40,080 nucleotides of DNA, taken from positions 1 to 40,080 of the forward strand of contig JACCWM010000164.1 in assembly GCA_013697635.1 (NCBI GenBank), given 5' to 3'. A program made the position numbers and the translations under genes. The first letter of the stretch is position 1; each line of letters starts with the position of its first letter. Source of the DNA: Lujinxingiaceae bacterium. GTDB lineage: Bacteria > Myxococcota_A > Bradymonadia > Bradymonadales > Bradymonadaceae. Positions 3,676 to 37,619 of the stretch are shown here, piece by piece. The notes below the pieces were generated by a model. It was not told the DNA's origin. It worked only from the letters and a program-made list of their open reading frames with translations, and made no database searches.

Positions 3676-5065
3676 AAACTTTGATAATCTGCTGACAATC
3701 ATCTATCTCATCGCCGCCGTACTGTTCATCTCGAGCCTTGGCAGCCTCTCCAAAGAGGGCACGGCCCGGCGCGGCAATTTGATGGGCATGATCGGCATGG
3801 CGCTGGCGATTGGCGCGACCTTTCTGCACGACCCGAACACGGCGATCGCGATCTTGCTCGTTGCGCTGGGCCTGGGCGCGGTGCTGGGCGCGTTGGCGGC
3901 CTCGCGCGTGGCGATGACGATGATGCCCGAGCTCGTCGCGATCTTGCACAGCTTTGTGGGCCTTGCGGCCGTGCTGGTAGGCTTTGCCTCCTATCTTGGC
4001 AAGCCGCCCGAAGCCATCAATACGGTGTTCTTGATCGAGGTCTATGTCGCGGTGGCCGTCGGCGCGCTGACCTTTACCGGCTCGATCGTTGCCTGGGCGA
4101 AGCTCTCGGCCAAGATCAGCGGCGCGCCGCTGCTCTTGCCGGGTCGCCATGTGCTCAACGCGCTGCTCGTGCTCGCCATGGTCGGCTTTGGCGTCCTCTT
4201 TACGCTTGCGCCCGGGCCTGGCGAGGGCATGATGCCGCTGCTCGTCAACGCGCTGATCGCCTCGATCATCGGCGTGCATCTGGTCTTAGCGATCGGCGGC
4301 GCCGATATGCCCGTGGTCGTCTCGTTGCTCAACAGTTATTCGGGCTGGGCGGCAGCAGCGGCGGGCTTCATGCTCTCCAACGACCTGCTGATCGTGACCG
4401 GAGCGTTGGTCGGCAGCAGCGGGGCGATCTTGAGCTACATCATGTGTCGGGCGATGAATCGCTCGATCTGGAACGTGGTTTTTGCAGGCTTTGGCACCTC
4501 CGATTCCAAGGTGGTCGCCGTGGTCAGCGACGGCATCGAGCGCGAGGTGCGCACGGCAACGGCCGCCGAGGTCGCCGTCAACCTCAAGAAGGCGCGCCGC
4601 GTGATCATCGTGCCCGGCTATGGCATGGCCGTGGCCAAGGCCCAGCACAGCGTCAGCCAGATGACGCGCACGCTGCGCGCTCAGGGCGTGGAGGTGCACT
4701 TTGGCATCCACCCCGTGGCCGGTCGCATGCCCGGCCACATGAACGTCTTGCTCGCGGAGGCCGACATCCCCTACGAGGTCGTGCTCGAGATGGACGAGAT
4801 CAACCGAGACTTCCGCTCGACCGACGTCGTGCTCGTGATTGGCGCCAACGACATCGTCAACCCTGACGCGCTCACCGACCGCTCGAGCCCGATCTACGGC
4901 ATGCCCCAGCTCACCGTCTGGGACGCCGCTCAGGTTTACGTGCTCAAGCGAAGCCTCTCGTCTGGCTATGCGGGCGTAGGTAACTCGTTGTTTTTCAAGG
5001 AGAACACGTCCATGTTTTTTGGCGACGCCAATACGAGCATCGACGACGTGCTGAAGAATCTCTAG
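3668..5065 (+). CDS. pntB: NAD(P) transhydrogenase subunit beta
   Basis: The 465-residue integral membrane protein has a long N-terminal membrane region followed by the NADP-binding domain III. Its motifs are [42 protein letters not shown] and [12 protein letters not shown], as in E. coli PntB (462 residues). The ATG at 3668 has GAGG nine bases upstream and overlaps the pntA stop. A GTG at 3659 in the same frame is a weaker alternative. The TAG stop is built into the ribosome site of the next gene (TAGGAGCTACGATG), so pntA, pntB and the lipoprotein gene look like one operon. Confidence 0.95.
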
Positions 5066-29975: not shown

Positions 29976-30485
29976 TTATTGCAAGTTGGGTGCACGGCAG
30001 CCGACGTGGCTGTCGAAGACATGGTTGAGCGTGGCGCCGTCTTGGGCGCAGTCACAGGCTCCGTTCTCCCAGGCGCCGCCGGTATCCCAACAAAGCGCCT
30101 CGATCGAGGCGGCCTCAGGTGCGATGCAGCCAAGATCCTCGTCGAAGATGTGGTAGAGCGTGGCGCCGTCCTGGGCGCACTCGCAGGCGCCGCTCTCCCA
30201 GGCTCCACCGGAATCCCAGCAAAGGGTCTCGCGCGCGTTGGCGGCCGGAGGATTGGGGGCTTTGCAGCCAAGCTGGCTGTCGAAAACATGATTGAGCGTG
30301 GCGCCGTCTTGGGCGCACTCGCAGGCGCCACTCTCCCAGGCTCCACCCGTATTCCAGCACAATGCCTCTGCGCCGGACATTGGATCGTCTTGATCGTTGG
30401 GGCCACCATCATTGGCGCAAGCGAGCGCGAAGGCTGCCATGATGAGGGCGAAGATAGCGAGGGGTCTTGCGATCGAGCTGGGCAT
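29976..30485 (-). CDS. Lipoprotein made of three Cys/Trp repeats
   Basis: The 169-residue protein has a signal peptide with lipobox ALAC and a short acidic spacer. Three repeats of about 37 residues follow. Each has the pattern LCW-(N/D)-(T/S)GGAWE-(S/N)-GAC-(E/D)-CAQDGATL-x-H-(V/I)-FD-x-x-(L/V)-GC. Each repeat has four cysteines, likely forming two disulfides, so it is an exported disulfide-rich domain array. GAGGA precedes the ATG. The function is unknown; small Cys-rich modules of this kind are common on the surface of deltaproteobacterial predators. Confidence 0.75.
   Translation of the reverse strand: MPSSIARPLAIFALIMAAFALACANDGGPNDQDDPMSGAEALCWNTGGAWESGACECAQDGATLNHVFDSQLGCKAPNPPAANARETLCWDSGGAWESGACECAQDGATLYHIFDEDLGCIAPEAASIEALCWDTGGAWENGACDCAQDGATLNHVFDSHVGCRAPNLQ
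29988..30368 (-). repeat. Three in-frame tandem repeats inside the lipoprotein gene
   Basis: The units correspond to residues 40-77, 86-122 and 129-166. The DNA is also nearly identical: GCGCCGTC-T/C-TGGGCGCA and CTCCCAGGC recur in each. This suggests recent duplication rather than old divergence. Confidence 0.7.
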
Positions 30486-31367: not shown

Positions 31368-33518
31368 TCAGGGCATCGTGCAGGCGGCGGTGGCCTGGCA
31401 AAAGGAGTATTGGTAGCAGACGCCGCTCTGGCAATCGGCCGCAGAGCTGCACGATTCGCCGGCTGTGGCGGCTGGCTCGCAGATGCGCTCGCTGCTTGAG
31501 CAGCGCAGTCCGGGGACGCACGGGGTGCTGTGGTCGCAGGGTTGGCCGGCTGTGGCGGCGAGCTGGCAGGTGTAGTTATCGCGGGAACAGTAAAGGTTTT
31601 GGGCGCATTCGATCGTGTCGTCGCAGCGGGCATCGAGCGCTAAGCGATCCTCGCAGGTGTTCGACGAGCCGCAGATGTATTCGCTGCGGCAGGATTGATC
31701 CCAGCGATCGCAGGCGGCACCTTTTCCCAGCCGGGGCAGGCAGACCTCCTGGCGGTCGTGGCAGTACAAGGCGTCGGGGCAGGAGCCGCTGCTGTGGCAG
31801 GGGCGACCGATCGGGTCGGCCTGGCAGACGCTCTCAAAACAGTACGAGCCCTCGGTGCACACCCCGCTGCAGGCTTCGCCGAGTTTGGGGCGCGGCTTGC
31901 AGCTCGACTCGCCGGAGTCGTCGGCCATACAGAAGAAGCCTTTGATGCAGTTATCGACGCCGAGAAAGCGTGATTGGGAGCAGGGCTGGTCAGCGGCCGC
32001 ACGCGGCTTGCACGTGACACCGTCGAAAAGATCGCAGTAGGAGGCGTCGTCGCAGACGCGAAGCGCGGCGCAGCGTTGGCCGGCTCGGGCCGGCTTGCAG
32101 ATCAAGTTCATGATCTGGCAGCGCTCCTCAACGCACAAAAACGGCTCCTGACAGGTGTCGATCCGGGTGCACTCCTGGCCGGGGCCGGGGCGCTCGACGC
32201 AGACATTGTTGGCGCAGTAGCCAAGCGGATAGCAGCGAAAATCGTCGGTGCAAGCGCTGCCAATGACCGCCGCCGGGCCGCACCTCTTGGTTGCCAGGCA
32301 ATTGTTCGAATCGCAATCGAAGTCGTCAACACACGACGGGCTGGAATCGGCTTTGGACGTGCATATGCCCGTCGGGCAGCCCGAGCACGAGCAGTTGGGC
32401 GGGCGGCAAAGACCGGCGCATGTCTCGTCATCGGCGCATTGAGAGTCGGCCGAGCAGGCCCCTGGCGGCCCGCCACAGGTGCCCTCAAAGCAGACCTGCG
32501 AGCGACAATCCTCGTGCTCCGAGCATCTCTGGCCATCGGCCACGCCGCACAGCCCAGCCTCCTGGTCACATCGATAGCGCTCGCAGGCGTAGTCGCTGCG
32601 ACAGGGCTCACCGACGCTACGGCGTGCCCGGCAACTGCCGGCGTCACAGTAGTACGGCTGGCGACAGCTCGAGCCCAGTCCCTGGCTCTCGGTGGCCTCG
32701 TCGCAGGGGGCGCCAATCACGCCGCCAGAGTCGCACTTGCCCCAGCCGCCGCCTTGTTGAAGCGTGTAGTTGCAAAAACCCGACGTGCACTGCTCGCTGT
32801 CGACGCAGACGGCGTCGTCGGCATCGAGCGGTGCGCAGCGGCGCGCATCATCTTCTTGGTAGGTGCAGTGCAGTCCGTCCTGGCATTGGCGCGTGTACTG
32901 GCTGCAGGCCGCTCCCTCACCGTGGCGAGGCTTGCACACCCGGCAGGCGACGCTGCCTTGCTCGCGATCGAGCTGCTCTGGCGTGCAATAAAGATTGGCC
33001 AGACAGCTCGCATCCGAGGTGCAGGACTCGTCGAGTTTGGCCGTGCCGGCGTTGTGGCCATCGTCGTCCTCCGGGAGGTCGAAGGCCTGCGAGCAGGGGG
33101 TATTGTCGCCGCCGCGCTCGATCGCATCGCAGCTCGCTGTGTTGAGCCAGGCCACGCACGCCGCGGATTGAGCGGCATTGATGTCAGGGCGAAGCTCCTT
33201 GACGCCGAAGCGCACCGCACTTCCAGGCGCATCGATCTCAGTCAGCCGGCAGGTGAAGGCGAAGTTGAGGATGGCGATGCACTCGTTGCGATTGCGATAG
33301 GCGAAGGGACGGCCGGCGGCGTTGGGGCAGCGGCTGATCGTGTTGCACAGCGCGTCGAGCACATCGGCATAGGGGCCCTCAACCGTGGCGCCAGCACCTT
33401 TGGCTTTCTCATCGTCGCAACCACCGATCCCGGCGAGCATGACGGCTGAAAAAACCATAATCGCAACCCATGGGCCGAAACGAAGGACAAAGGCTTGGGG
33501 CATGGAAGAGGCATTCAT
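31368..33518 (-). CDS. Large Cys-rich lipoprotein (Dickkopf-like cysteine repeats)
   Basis: The 716-residue protein has a signal peptide and lipobox GIGGC. An N-terminal region of about 140 residues without dense Cys follows. After it come roughly a dozen modules of the form C-x(3-5)-C-x(3-6)-(Y/F/L)C-x(4-12)-C separated by G-x-x-C. Examples are GEACSGVCTEGSYCFESVCQAD, split around conserved G and C, and PCSQSRFLGVDNCIKG. Such arrays resemble Dickkopf/EGF-like disulfide modules and are frequent in envelope lipoproteins of Myxococcota and Bradymonadota. The protein is probably surface-exposed and elongated. It is divergent from the response regulator, with a palindrome in the shared promoter region. 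Confidence 0.8.
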   Translation of the reverse strand: MNASSMPQAFVLRFGPWVAIMVFSAVMLAGIGGCDDEKAKGAGATVEGPYADVLDALCNTISRCPNAAGRPFAYRNRNECIAILNFAFTCRLTEIDAPGSAVRFGVKELRPDINAAQSAACVAWLNTASCDAIERGGDNTPCSQAFDLPEDDDGHNAGTAKLDESCTSDASCLANLYCTPEQLDREQGSVACRVCKPRHGEGAACSQYTRQCQDGLHCTYQEDDARRCAPLDADDAVCVDSEQCTSGFCNYTLQQGGGWGKCDSGGVIGAPCDEATESQGLGSSCRQPYYCDAGSCRARRSVGEPCRSDYACERYRCDQEAGLCGVADGQRCSEHEDCRSQVCFEGTCGGPPGACSADSQCADDETCAGLCRPPNCSCSGCPTGICTSKADSSPSCVDDFDCDSNNCLATKRCGPAAVIGSACTDDFRCYPLGYCANNVCVERPGPGQECTRIDTCQEPFLCVEERCQIMNLICKPARAGQRCAALRVCDDASYCDLFDGVTCKPRAAADQPCSQSRFLGVDNCIKGFFCMADDSGESSCKPRPKLGEACSGVCTEGSYCFESVCQADPIGRPCHSSGSCPDALYCHDRQEVCLPRLGKGAACDRWDQSCRSEYICGSSNTCEDRLALDARCDDTIECAQNLYCSRDNYTCQLAATAGQPCDHSTPCVPGLRCSSSERICEPAATAGESCSSAADCQSGVCYQYSFCQATAACTMP

Positions 33519-33552
33519 TGGTATTCCAGCGCAAAAGTTCGCAACCGATAAA

Positions 33553-33564
33553 GCATGATCATGC
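33553..33564. promoter_or_regulatory. Palindromic candidate operator GCATGATCATGC
   Basis: A perfect 12-bp palindrome lies in the divergent region between the Cys-rich lipoprotein and the response regulator. Its core CATGATCATG is shared with the palindrome at 36181-36196 before the histidine kinase. Its closeness (35 bases) to the lipoprotein start suggests repressor-like or core-promoter control there. Confidence 0.5.
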
Positions 33565-33616
33565 CAAAGACCACGAGAAAATCAACAAACCTATCGCTAT
33601 ACCAAAGCGCATACCC

Positions 33617-33678
33617 CTGTTATGGTTGTCCCCTGTTCCCCCAGTATTAGTTGCATCCTGACGATACTGTCATAACAG
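33617..33678 (+). promoter_or_regulatory. Nested inverted repeats directly upstream of the response regulator
   Basis: CTGTTATG (33617-33624) pairs with CATAACAG (33671-33678). Inside it CAGTAT (33642-33647) pairs with ATACTG (33664-33669). The right arm ends eight bases before the ATG at 33687, so the structure could mask the ribosome site or be a paired operator. Confidence 0.4.
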
Positions 33679-33686
33679 AGAGAACC

Positions 33687-34343
33687 ATGCCAAAGTCCGT
33701 TTTGCTCGTCGATGATGACCCATCCGTTTTGCACCACTGGGGTGAGCAAATTGATTTGTTGGGCTATACACTGAGCGCCTCACACACGAGCGCGGAGTCC
33801 GCCTTGAAGTGGGTGCAAGAGGGTGGGCACGCAGATATGGGGCTTATCGACATCGGTCTTCCGGGCATCAGCGGGGTCCAGCTCATCGAAAAGCTGCGCC
33901 GGCAACGCCCAGAGATGCGCTTGCTCGTTTTGACGATCTTCGACGATGCACCGATTGTGATCGAAGCATTTCGTGCGGGCGCGCGCGGCTACCTGCTCAA
34001 GGATTCAAGCGTAGAAGAGCTCCAAGCGGCGTTGTTGAGCGTGGAGTCCGGCGGTGTTGCTGTGACGAATATGGCGGTCGAGAGCATGGTCGCTCACTTC
34101 AATGCCGAAGGCCTGGAGGGGCCAAGCTCCTCGGCCGAGGAACTGCTCACCATAAGAGAGCGCGAAGTGCTCACCTTGCTCGCCCGTGGCCTGAGCTATG
34201 CCGAGGTGGCCAACGTATTGTGCATCGCGCTGGGAACGGTGCAGACCCACGTCAAGGCGATCTACACCAAGCTCGATGTCACGACCAAGACCGAGGCTAC
34301 CGCAGTGGCGCTCAGCCGAAAGCTCATCAATCCGTGGACCTGA
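33687..34343 (+). CDS. NarL/FixJ-family response regulator
   Basis: The 218-residue protein has a receiver domain (VLLVDDDPSV acidic pocket, phosphoacceptor Asp55 in GLIDIGLPG, Thr in LTIFDD, Lys in GYLLKDSS). A C-terminal LuxR-type helix-turn-helix follows (LTIREREVLTLLARGLSYAEVANVL and TVQTHVKAIYTKL). It would bind palindromic DNA as a dimer after phosphorylation. The likely partner is the HisKA_3 kinase at 36291-37619 on the same strand. Two envelope genes on the other strand lie between them. ATG 33687 starts the receiver domain exactly; an upstream GTG would add 12 unlikely residues. Confidence 0.92.
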   Translation: MPKSVLLVDDDPSVLHHWGEQIDLLGYTLSASHTSAESALKWVQEGGHADMGLIDIGLPGISGVQLIEKLRRQRPEMRLLVLTIFDDAPIVIEAFRAGARGYLLKDSSVEELQAALLSVESGGVAVTNMAVESMVAHFNAEGLEGPSSSAEELLTIREREVLTLLARGLSYAEVANVLCIALGTVQTHVKAIYTKLDVTTKTEATAVALSRKLINPWT

Positions 34344-34350
34344 TAGCCGC

Positions 34351-35268
34351 TTAGAAAGCAAAGCCGTAGCGAAAGAGAAATTTCAGGCCATCGGGGGTCT
34401 GAGGAGCATCGCTCATGGCCAGCCAGTACTCCATACCAACGCCCAGAGCGAAGTAGCGCGCGATCACTAAGTCGGCATAACCGCCGGCGATGGCAATGAG
34501 CGCGCTCACCGCCTCTTTTTCACCGGAGGGGCCGACACTGCTAATGCCGTAGAGCAGGCCGGCGGCCGGCGCGAGTTGAAGCTTCCAGAGGTTGAGGGCA
34601 GGCACCATGACCATGCCTCCTGCGGTCACCCAGGTCAGGGCGCTCGACGTGAACCCATCGAGGCTCGGGCCGACGGCCGAGCCCAGACGAAGGGACAGGC
34701 CCAGCGGAATGTGGCGCAAATACTTCTCCAGAGCCACGGTGTAGCCGCCGTCAGAGGAGATGTTGTTGGCCAGATTCCAACCGGAATTCAAGGGAGGACG
34801 CTGGTAGGCCGTAAAGACCCAGTTGATCTCGCTTTCGCGCTCGGCGACGGCCTCGTCGTCGGTGAAGAGAATACAGAGCTGATCGCCCGAGTCGATTTTG
34901 ACGCCGTGCACCGTACCCTCGGTGGAGCGCAAGAAGGTGGTGTTGCCCACGGTCGTGACCTCGTTGGCGACCCAGAAGGCGTCACATCCCATCTCGCGAG
35001 CGGCGCCCGCCCAAGACGTAAAAAAAGGTCCAAGAGCCTTGAAGGTTCCCACGACCTTCCACGGGCGGCGAATGGCGTCATCCTCCATATCGGTGAGGTA
35101 GAATTCACCCTTGCTGTCCTGCGCGACCTTGACCTTGATCGGATCGCTGCTGTAGCGCATGTTCGGTTCAAAGTCCGGTTGAGTCTTGACCATGAACGCG
35201 CCACAGCCACTCAGAGCCAGCGTAAAAAGTGCAAAGAGGAGGGTTCGTGCGATGTGCGAGTAGCTCAT
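34351..35268 (-). CDS. Lipoprotein with envelope/beta-barrel-like C-terminus
   Basis: The 305-residue protein has a lipoprotein signal (FALFTLALSGC). A domain of about 130 residues follows, with WKVVGTFKALGPFF and an apparently paired MGCDAF/DQLCILF. The C-terminal half has alternating hydrophobic strands and ends in the aromatic-terminated FLFRYGFAF, typical of outer-membrane proteins. It is nine bases downstream of the next gene on the same strand, so the two form an operon. It converges on the response regulator with seven bases between. No named family is recognised. Confidence 0.65.
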   Translation of the reverse strand: MSYSHIARTLLFALFTLALSGCGAFMVKTQPDFEPNMRYSSDPIKVKVAQDSKGEFYLTDMEDDAIRRPWKVVGTFKALGPFFTSWAGAAREMGCDAFWVANEVTTVGNTTFLRSTEGTVHGVKIDSGDQLCILFTDDEAVAERESEINWVFTAYQRPPLNSGWNLANNISSDGGYTVALEKYLRHIPLGLSLRLGSAVGPSLDGFTSSALTWVTAGGMVMVPALNLWKLQLAPAAGLLYGISSVGPSGEKEAVSALIAIAGGYADLVIARYFALGVGMEYWLAMSDAPQTPDGLKFLFRYGFAF

Positions 35269-35277
35269 GATGACATC

Positions 35278-36096
35278 CTAGATTTCAAAGATTGCGCCAA
35301 AGTCGATGGTCATCCAAAAGGCGCTTTGGCCGCCCAGAAGGAATCCGAAGATAAAGTCCGTGTACAGCCAGTTGGGCGAGCCGTAGATGCCGCCCACGCC
35401 CATGGTGAGTTGGCCGCCGTAGGCCGTGGAGAATGGTTCGAAGAGGCCGGTGAGCGCCCAGCTGCCGATTTTGCCGTTGTTGTACATGCTCTGGACGCCT
35501 GCCTGCAGGGCGAGCACGTTCTCGGAGTCACCGACGGCCTCGCCGCCGGTAGCGATAATCTTGGTGCCGCCGAGCAGCTGAAAGTCGCTGCGCCGAAGCT
35601 GGCAGTGGGAGTTCCAGGAGGAAGAAATGGTGGTCGAACCGGTGGTCGTTGAGGACTGTCCGGCCTTGATCCAGCGCTGTTCGTAGTCACGCAAGTTCAG
35701 CCCGGCCATCGCGTCGAGGTGAATGCTGTGCCCATTGCCGCCAAAGTAGCGCGCGCGCCCCGAGATCCACAGCGGGTTGAGCAGCATCACCTCGGTGCGT
35801 GCGGCCAGGCTCCAGCCATAGCCCAGGCCGCTGTCCGGATCGCTGCTGAAGCTGCCGTTGAGGCCGCCGCCCATCAAAAAGCCCGCGTGCACCGCGATCT
35901 GGGCGATGGGCCGGCTCTTGACCCGCTCGTTCCAGCGCGCGGCCATCTCCAAGTCGTCCTTCACGGCGATGTTGGAAGCCAGGCAGCTCTCCTTGGCAGT
36001 TGCTTCGGTCTGGGCAAACGCTGGTGAAGCCACAGCGAGCATCAAGGCCAGGGGAAGTGCGGCGAAGGCAGCGGTACGAATTGAAGACATTGGCAT
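35278..36096 (-). CDS. Outer-membrane beta-barrel-like protein
   Basis: The 272-residue protein has a cleavable signal (ALPLALMLAVASPAFAQ). The mature part has alternating strands and glycine/aromatic-rich turns: IAVHAGFLMGGGLNGSF, GYGWSLAARTEVMLLNPLWISGRARYFGG, WLYTDFIFGFLLGG. It ends in a short aromatic-acidic terminus. It is probably a small outer-membrane barrel and the first gene of the two-gene operon divergent from the histidine kinase. GGAGAATTC precedes the ATG. A palindrome lies 85 bases upstream. Confidence 0.65.
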   Translation of the reverse strand: MPMSSIRTAAFAALPLALMLAVASPAFAQTEATAKESCLASNIAVKDDLEMAARWNERVKSRPIAQIAVHAGFLMGGGLNGSFSSDPDSGLGYGWSLAARTEVMLLNPLWISGRARYFGGNGHSIHLDAMAGLNLRDYEQRWIKAGQSSTTTGSTTISSSWNSHCQLRRSDFQLLGGTKIIATGGEAVGDSENVLALQAGVQSMYNNGKIGSWALTGLFEPFSTAYGGQLTMGVGGIYGSPNWLYTDFIFGFLLGGQSAFWMTIDFGAIFEI

Positions 36097-36180
36097 GAAT
36101 TCTCCATGAGTTGAAATGCAGACGGCCTAGATTGGCCTCTCATTGTGCGCGATAATGAGGCAAGTGCGGGCGATGAACAA

Positions 36181-36196
36181 TCCCATGATCATGGGA
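36181..36196. promoter_or_regulatory. 16-bp perfect palindrome TCCCATGATCATGGGA, candidate operator
   Basis: It lies in the divergent region between the beta-barrel operon (start 36096) and the histidine kinase (start 36291). It contains the same CATGATCATG core as the palindrome at 33553-33564. I saw no other copy of this core in the window. Confidence 0.55.
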
Positions 36197-36290
36197 CTCG
36201 ACGTTGACATCGTGCGATGCACTAAGGCATAGAATTTTAACGAGAAGCAGAGGTTTTCCCCGCCAGAGTGCTGAGTTGTCGAGGTTCCAG

Positions 36291-37619
36291 ATGTCTGCAA
36301 TCGAGTTGACGCTCGATGGGCCCTACATGGGTGTTGCCGAGAAGGGCCAACGCGAAGTTTTGGCGCAGGCGCCCTACACCGAAGCGGAGCGCGAGGCGGC
36401 CATCGTCCAGGCGTTGGAAGCCAATTGGGCCGACGGTCTGGTGGCGGTACGTGGCATTTGGCCGACGGCATCCTTTATCGCCATGGCCCTGGCGGTCTGT
36501 ATTCTGGTCATGATCCCCCAACTTCAAGGGCTGTGGCGCGTGGATGTCGCTCTGGTGCTGCCTCTGATGGGGGCGGTTTGCACGGCGGTCGTGATGGCTA
36601 CCTGGGTTTACAGACGTCATGGGCCAAGCCATCCCATGCATTTTCGGGCGACCTACACCGAGGGCATCACCGTAATGCTCGTGGGCATCGCCTTGATCTA
36701 CGCTTCAGGCAGCGCCGGCAGCGTTTGGTGGCTGGTGATCGTCGCTCAGTTGTTCAACATTTCCCAGCGGCCCCGCATAAAATCCTTCTCGATGTGCCTG
36801 GAACTCGGAGGCATCGCGTTGTTGGTGGCGCTTTTTATGGTGTCCGGCCAGTGGTGGGATGGGCTGGCGTCGATCTTGTTTGGCGGCATTTGCATCTGGC
36901 TGTTATGGATCATGCTCGGCGGCCAGATGTCCAACGTGCGTGGAACGGCCGAGCGCAGTCTCTTGGAGCGAAAGCTGCAAAGCGTGCACATGGAGCGCGA
37001 ACGCGAGCGAATCGCTCGCGATCTGCATGACGGTATCGGCGCGGAGTTGACGAGCTTGATCTTTCAGGCTCGCGCATTGAAGTCTGATGCATTGAGTGAG
37101 CACCAGAAGGCTCGCCTCGAAAGTTTCGTCGAGCAGGCCCGAGGTAACCTCGATGAGCTTCGAGGAGTGGTCTGGTCACTGCAACACGAGACAATGGAAT
37201 GGGCGGATATCATCGGTCGCCTCGCGCGAAAGTGCACGAGTCAGTGCCCCGCTGCAGTGAGCTTCGTGCTGGTGGACCGGGAAAGTCCGGTCGGCCCGCT
37301 GCCGGGAGAGTGGCCCCACCATATCGTTCACATCGCTCAGGAGGCCGTGCGAAACGCCGTGCGCCACGGCGAGCCTGGCCAGATCACGCTTACGATCGGG
37401 GTCGATGAAGACGCGCTGCGCCTCGAGGTCGTCGACGACGGCAAAGGCATCACGGCTGAGGCCGTCGCAGCAAGCCGTGGTGGACTTCGCAACATGAAAA
37501 GACGCGCTTCGAATCTCGGGGGCACTTTGGAGATCGAGGACGCCGCTCCTGGGGTTCGTGTGAGAGCAGTCTTTTCACGCCAGTTGCTCACGGGTGTGCC
37601 GTCCAAGGCTGTTGATTGA
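36291..37619 (+). CDS. Sensor histidine kinase, HisKA_3 (NarX/DesK) type
   Basis: The 442-residue protein has an N-terminal segment of about 55 residues, then about six membrane helices (residues 58-215) and no large periplasmic domain, so it may sense the membrane itself, as DesK does. A dimerisation region carries phospho-His246 in RIARDLHDGIGAELTSL. The ATP-binding domain follows: HIAQEAVRNAVRHGEPGQ (N box), VVDDGKGI and RGGLRNMKRRA. The HDGIG pattern is specific to the family that pairs with NarL-type regulators, matching the regulator 2 kb upstream. ATG 36291 with CGAGG upstream is preferred over an in-frame start at 36204. Confidence 0.92.
   Translation: MSAIELTLDGPYMGVAEKGQREVLAQAPYTEAEREAAIVQALEANWADGLVAVRGIWPTASFIAMALAVCILVMIPQLQGLWRVDVALVLPLMGAVCTAVVMATWVYRRHGPSHPMHFRATYTEGITVMLVGIALIYASGSAGSVWWLVIVAQLFNISQRPRIKSFSMCLELGGIALLVALFMVSGQWWDGLASILFGGICIWLLWIMLGGQMSNVRGTAERSLLERKLQSVHMERERERIARDLHDGIGAELTSLIFQARALKSDALSEHQKARLESFVEQARGNLDELRGVVWSLQHETMEWADIIGRLARKCTSQCPAAVSFVLVDRESPVGPLPGEWPHHIVHIAQEAVRNAVRHGEPGQITLTIGVDEDALRLEVVDDGKGITAEAVAASRGGLRNMKRRASNLGGTLEIEDAAPGVRVRAVFSRQLLTGVPSKAVD

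Follow-up and report, generated by a model that had tools for sequence, protein, structure and literature searches.

This locus raises the question of whether two short palindromes with the same core, each lying between divergent genes of a two-component region, mark a regulon that joins the kinase and the response regulator to the envelope genes around them. The window, i.e. the whole stretch of DNA analysed (40,080 bases, contig C110 of its genome), carries the following features:

31368-33518, minus strand: Cys-rich lipoprotein; its start codon lies 35 bp from the 33553 palindrome
33551-33566, no strand: AAGCATGATCATGCCA, with a perfect palindrome at 33553-33564; shares no more than the CATG-N2-CATG core with the longer site; may be an autoregulatory site of weak or variant form
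33687-34343, plus strand: NarL-type response regulator, receiver plus GerE (LuxR-type HTH) by Pfam, with NarL as best solved relative
34351-35268, minus strand: secreted protein resembling a lipoprotein, encoded second in the operon that begins with 35278-36096
35278-36096, minus strand: secreted protein (signal peptide present) whose gene comes first after the 36181 site; a paralogue lies behind the C184 site
36152-36180, minus strand: possible promoter TTGTTC-17-CATTAT toward 36096, abutting the 36181 site; picked by eye, below the scan threshold
36181-36196, no strand: 16-bp palindrome TCCCATG-AT-CATGGGA (7-2-7), flanked by the kinase gene and the divergent operon for secreted proteins; proposed as operator of the regulator
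36291-37619, plus strand: histidine kinase with about five membrane segments, HisKA_3 and HATPase_c (Pfam, hydropathy)

The shared core, CATGATCATG, occupies 33554-33563 and 36184-36193. The palindromes built on it extend to 12 bp (GCATGATCATGC, 33553-33564) and 16 bp (TCCCATGATCATGGGA, 36181-36196), the former within the intergenic region 33519-33686 between the divergent lipoprotein and regulator genes, the latter within 36097-36290 between the divergent secreted-protein and kinase genes. These positions agree with a sequence-only reading of the stretch, which had assigned the same core to both divergent promoters, had given the palindromes these extents and had seen no further copy in 40 kb; the window indeed holds exactly two. 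Shuffled versions of the window contained 0.05 copies on average, and none of 100 shuffles contained two. Scans of both intergenic regions returned neither a sigma-70-like promoter nor a terminator.

The envelope proteins encoded at 35278-36096, 34351-35268 and 31368-33518 had no match in Pfam, and a single-sequence structure model of the first (pLDDT 36) was too poor for a fold to be read from it. The label 'beta-barrel', which the sequence-only reading had given to the two-gene operon of secreted proteins, thus found no confirmation. Further along the minus strand, 29976-30485 encodes a small lipoprotein in which a motif (LCW..GGAWE.GAC.CAQDGATL.H.FD...GC.AP) is repeated three times in nearly identical form.

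The 10-bp core and the 16-bp palindrome

A repeated core alone is weak evidence, since palindromes of at least 10 bp number 75 in the window, and 12 of their 10-mer cores are seen at least twice. Across the 6.21-Mb genome we counted 18 copies of CATGATCATG (none in the reversed-sequence control), about 14 of which lie within long ORFs, mostly as ATG-ATC-ATG. As most genomic copies thus represent Met-Ile-Met codons, the 10-mer was rejected as the regulatory unit. The sequence-only reading had regarded a core frequent throughout the genome as an argument against its proposal, and this is how the 10-mer behaves but not the 16-mer.

What is exceptional and informative is the longer, 16-bp palindrome at 36181. 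In general form it reads TCCCATGNNCATGGGA, two 7-bp arms around a 2-bp spacer, which is a NarL-type geometry. A genome search with the 16-bp palindrome revealed TCCCATGAACATGGGA on contig C1, TCCCATGTTCATGGGA on C184 and TCCCATGAATATGGGA on C18, with the arms of the 36181 site and a free centre. Sites with at most one arm mismatch and an A/T centre number four in the genome, the window's included, and all four are intergenic as judged by a codon-usage gene caller, with a start codon 73, 84, 85 and 103 bp downstream. One further match with a single mismatch (C117) is coding, and the genomic matches with two or three mismatches fall nearly all within genes, providing an internal control.

The secreted protein encoded behind the C184 site and the window's 35278-36096 protein are paralogues (E 2e-7), while the C18 site precedes a pair of secreted proteins and the C1 site a lipoprotein. 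A weaker intergenic form, ACCCATTATCATGGGC, is found upstream of a lipoprotein gene on C86. That the kinase and regulator have a regulon which includes envelope genes and is larger than the window alone reveals is well supported, both by these genomic matches and by the occurrence of the site next to related regulators in other families (see below).

Two of these loci show further features. On C86 (L208, 4087-4142), overlapping operator half-sites in CACGATCATGGGCCCATGATAATGGGT form two interleaved palindromes upstream of the lipoprotein gene. On C1 (L158, 777-2898), the lipoprotein gene behind the operator is followed 31 bp on, on the same strand, by a gene for an ECF-type sigma factor, into which the regulon may feed.

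The 33553 palindrome and the CATG core

We then asked what the shorter palindrome represents. Compared with the full motif, 33551-33566 deviates at 5 of 14 arm bases and scores -4.4 against the operator weight matrix, a value that several random places in the window exceed. This comparison does not show the two palindromes to be one type of site.

An explanation in which both are nevertheless full sites of the regulator, which would then autoregulate its own gene together with that of the Cys-rich lipoprotein, falls slightly short of an even chance in our estimate. Besides the poor fit to the operator, the 33553 region is kept in no relative. In its favour is a survey of palindromic cores in the intergenic DNA close to some 60 loci of related regulators, where CATG-N2-CATG was the commonest of 96 comparable cores (10 occurrences against a mean of 1.26); after removal of the loci chosen through the motif it occurred 7 times, level with three other cores, two of which are common in genes. 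Moreover, the sister system in genome G332 (L275) has the identical 16-mer CCGCATGACCATGCGG at 3938 and 7138, i.e. at the promoter of a NarL-type regulator and at the divergent promoter of a kinase and an RCC1 lipoprotein. This layout is that of the window, and the G332 kinase is a HisKA hybrid and no orthologue of the window kinase. Variants with GCATG arms likewise occur with sister regulators: GCATG-N2-CATGC sites lie near three regulators with a TVR-IY-KLHV helix. Because the G332 system carries identical CATG-core sites at its regulator and kinase promoters, we keep the 33553 palindrome as a plausible site that might act as a weaker autoregulatory element, a proposal to which we give a little less than even weight.

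These observations invite a broader and more tentative reading, which we think could be correct although the greater part of our expectation lies against it. A subfamily of NarL-type regulators in the phylum would recognise a CATG-N2-CATG core whose outer arms change with the recognition helix, each system controlling its own genes and those of neighbouring lipoproteins or secreted proteins. In such a code, GTVQ helices would pair with CCATG/CATGG arms and TVR-IY-KLHV helices with GCATG/CATGC arms. If this covariation of arm and helix were true, the operators of many unstudied regulators of this kind would become predictable from sequence.

The regulator and the distribution of its candidate operator

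The window regulator consists of a receiver (PF00072, 2.4e-22) followed by a GerE domain (PF00196, 1.9e-13). Alignment with two relatives shows the active-site residues D10, D55, T83 and K105 of the receiver to be invariant, and a structure model displays the receiver and the expected four-helix HTH. Among solved structures NarL is the best relative, and DesR and VraR also match.

Since no genome with all genes of the window was found, we followed conservation through the regulator. The kinase yielded no full-length relative among 38 relatives and the 35278-36096 protein likewise none among 56 genomes of the class, and both were dropped for this purpose. A profile search of the phylum ranked the window's own regulator first, followed by those of G283, G115 and G307, a ranking that is not fully independent, as the G283 sequence was part of the profile. 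When the window regulator was the only query, G283, G307 and G115 came second, fifth and eighth among the fetched loci; with only its HTH they came second, third and fifth. Sequence identity between the G283 regulator and the window's amounts to 41%, their recognition helices being almost identical, and the helix GTVQ-H-K-IY-KL is common to all four regulators.

In a comparison of 379 genomes from the phylum, the window's own genome has three exact copies of TCCCATGNNCATGGGA and the other 378 have 0.04 on average (15 copies in all, no more than two in any one genome). Outside the own genome, exact copies that are clearly intergenic are restricted to two members of a single genus in another family, G283 with two copies and G115 with one. 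The remaining copies lie in ORFs, with two calls less certain, namely a G265 site lying across a stop codon and a G354 site whose ORF has a weak score; a G042 copy was rejected as coding. In other genomes of the class, the A/T-centred CCCATGNNCATGGG copies examined are almost all in genes, where they encode PMIMG/PMNMG-type peptides.

In G283, two kinase-like genes precede that of the NarL-type regulator. Both sites lie within 3 kb of the regulator gene, about 40 bp ahead of genes for a lipoprotein and a secreted protein, respectively. The G115 site is on a short contig other than that of its regulator. The G307 regulator has one site of the form CCCATGNNCATGGG, given in full as CCCCATGTTCATGGGT, in its own promoter, which is divergent and lies directly upstream. 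A third genome of the G283/G115 genus, G140, has neither the motif nor a close regulator (best E 2.4e-32), and no site was found across the 12.6 kb examined at L065, whose regulator is 43-44% identical. The candidate pairing of regulator and operator is seen in three families.

Could the 16-bp site belong to a different transcription factor, e.g. a TetR- or GntR-like repressor or a receiver-less GerE protein that controls envelope genes, with the two-component neighbourhood being incidental? Palindromes of this size serve many factor families as binding sites, and the genome has other GerE proteins, one of them on C1 about 8 kb from the site there. We consider this unlikely given that the site stands beside or upstream of relatives of the regulator in two further families (G283 and G307) and that, G115 apart, none of the other genomes among the 379 has an exact copy that is clearly intergenic. 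Chance, by which a shared core among many palindromes in 40 kb drew attention through the interesting places it fell in, can appeal to the 75 palindromes, the 12 repeated cores and the 18 genomic 10-mers, and is very improbable in view of the distribution of the 16-mer within and across genomes, an objection that covers the 36181 site only.

Taken together, we consider it probable that the window's own two-component system has TCCCATGNNCATGGGA as its operator and that this system would control an envelope regulon; the regulator itself very probably binds the 16-bp site. Counting against this view are the missing site at L065, the separate contig of the G115 site and the negative promoter scans. 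The motif, its intergenic position upstream of genes and its link with the regulator subfamily across families are observed directly. The earlier proposal of one regulon accordingly stands in part: four intergenic TCCCATGNNCATGGGA-type sites and the sites at related regulators tie the kinase and regulator to envelope genes, but the two palindromes do not enter it as one site type.

Proposed mechanism and comparison with known systems

The kinase contains HisKA_3 (PF07730, 1e-13) and HATPase_c (PF02518, 4.9e-12) domains; its hydropathy profile indicates five membrane segments, and Pfam recognised no sensor domain. It is the only complete HisKA_3 kinase found in its genome, and of the genome's GerE matches none but the window regulator also has a receiver. 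The two are therefore very probably partners, even with the target operon lying between their genes. The kinase may be a membrane-state sensor of the DesK type. Its sensor part presumably resembles the membrane and envelope sensors of the DesK/VraS type. An apparently decayed remnant of a second two-component system, with receiver-like and HisKA_3 fragments in broken frames, lies on C125 (L224, about 75,200).

Binding, the sign of regulation and the signal are the parts of the mechanism that we infer. The membrane kinase 36291-37619 would sense a membrane or envelope signal and phosphorylate the regulator 33687-34343, which as a dimer would bind the 7-2-7 palindrome just upstream of its target promoters. 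It is known that a NarL dimer binds 7-base inverted repeats with 2-bp spacing, and that activation can require no more than a single site immediately upstream of the -35 element (PMC7419079, PMC4549865). Because of the NarL-like 7-2-7 geometry and the sufficiency of one site near -35, the phosphorylated regulator would most likely activate the operon 36096-34351. The kinase gene on the other side of the 36181 site would probably be affected as well, and at least three further envelope-gene loci in the genome would come under the regulator's control, by our proposal likewise through activation.

Among the papers that literature searches listed, none describes this motif or system. For a lineage that has been little studied, the analysis yields a specific 16-bp candidate operator and, as a candidate regulon, a set of unnamed envelope proteins.

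The system is of the NarL/FixJ type, and its mechanism is not of a new kind. It shares with E. coli NarX/NarL the regulator with receiver and GerE domains and the inverted 7-bp arms with a 2-bp spacer, whereas the arms here read TCCCATG and an engineered NarL site reads TACCCCT-AA-AGGGGTA. In contrast to NarX/NarL, the targets are unnamed envelope proteins, and the kinase and regulator genes are split by the target operon. Its kinase is of the HisKA_3 type, as in DesK/DesR and VraS/VraR, and the several membrane segments predicted for it, with no sensor domain recognised, may be a further resemblance, but gene order, target genes and operator are unlike those of either system: DesK/DesR controls a fatty-acid desaturase gene, whereas the targets found here are genes for secreted proteins and lipoproteins.
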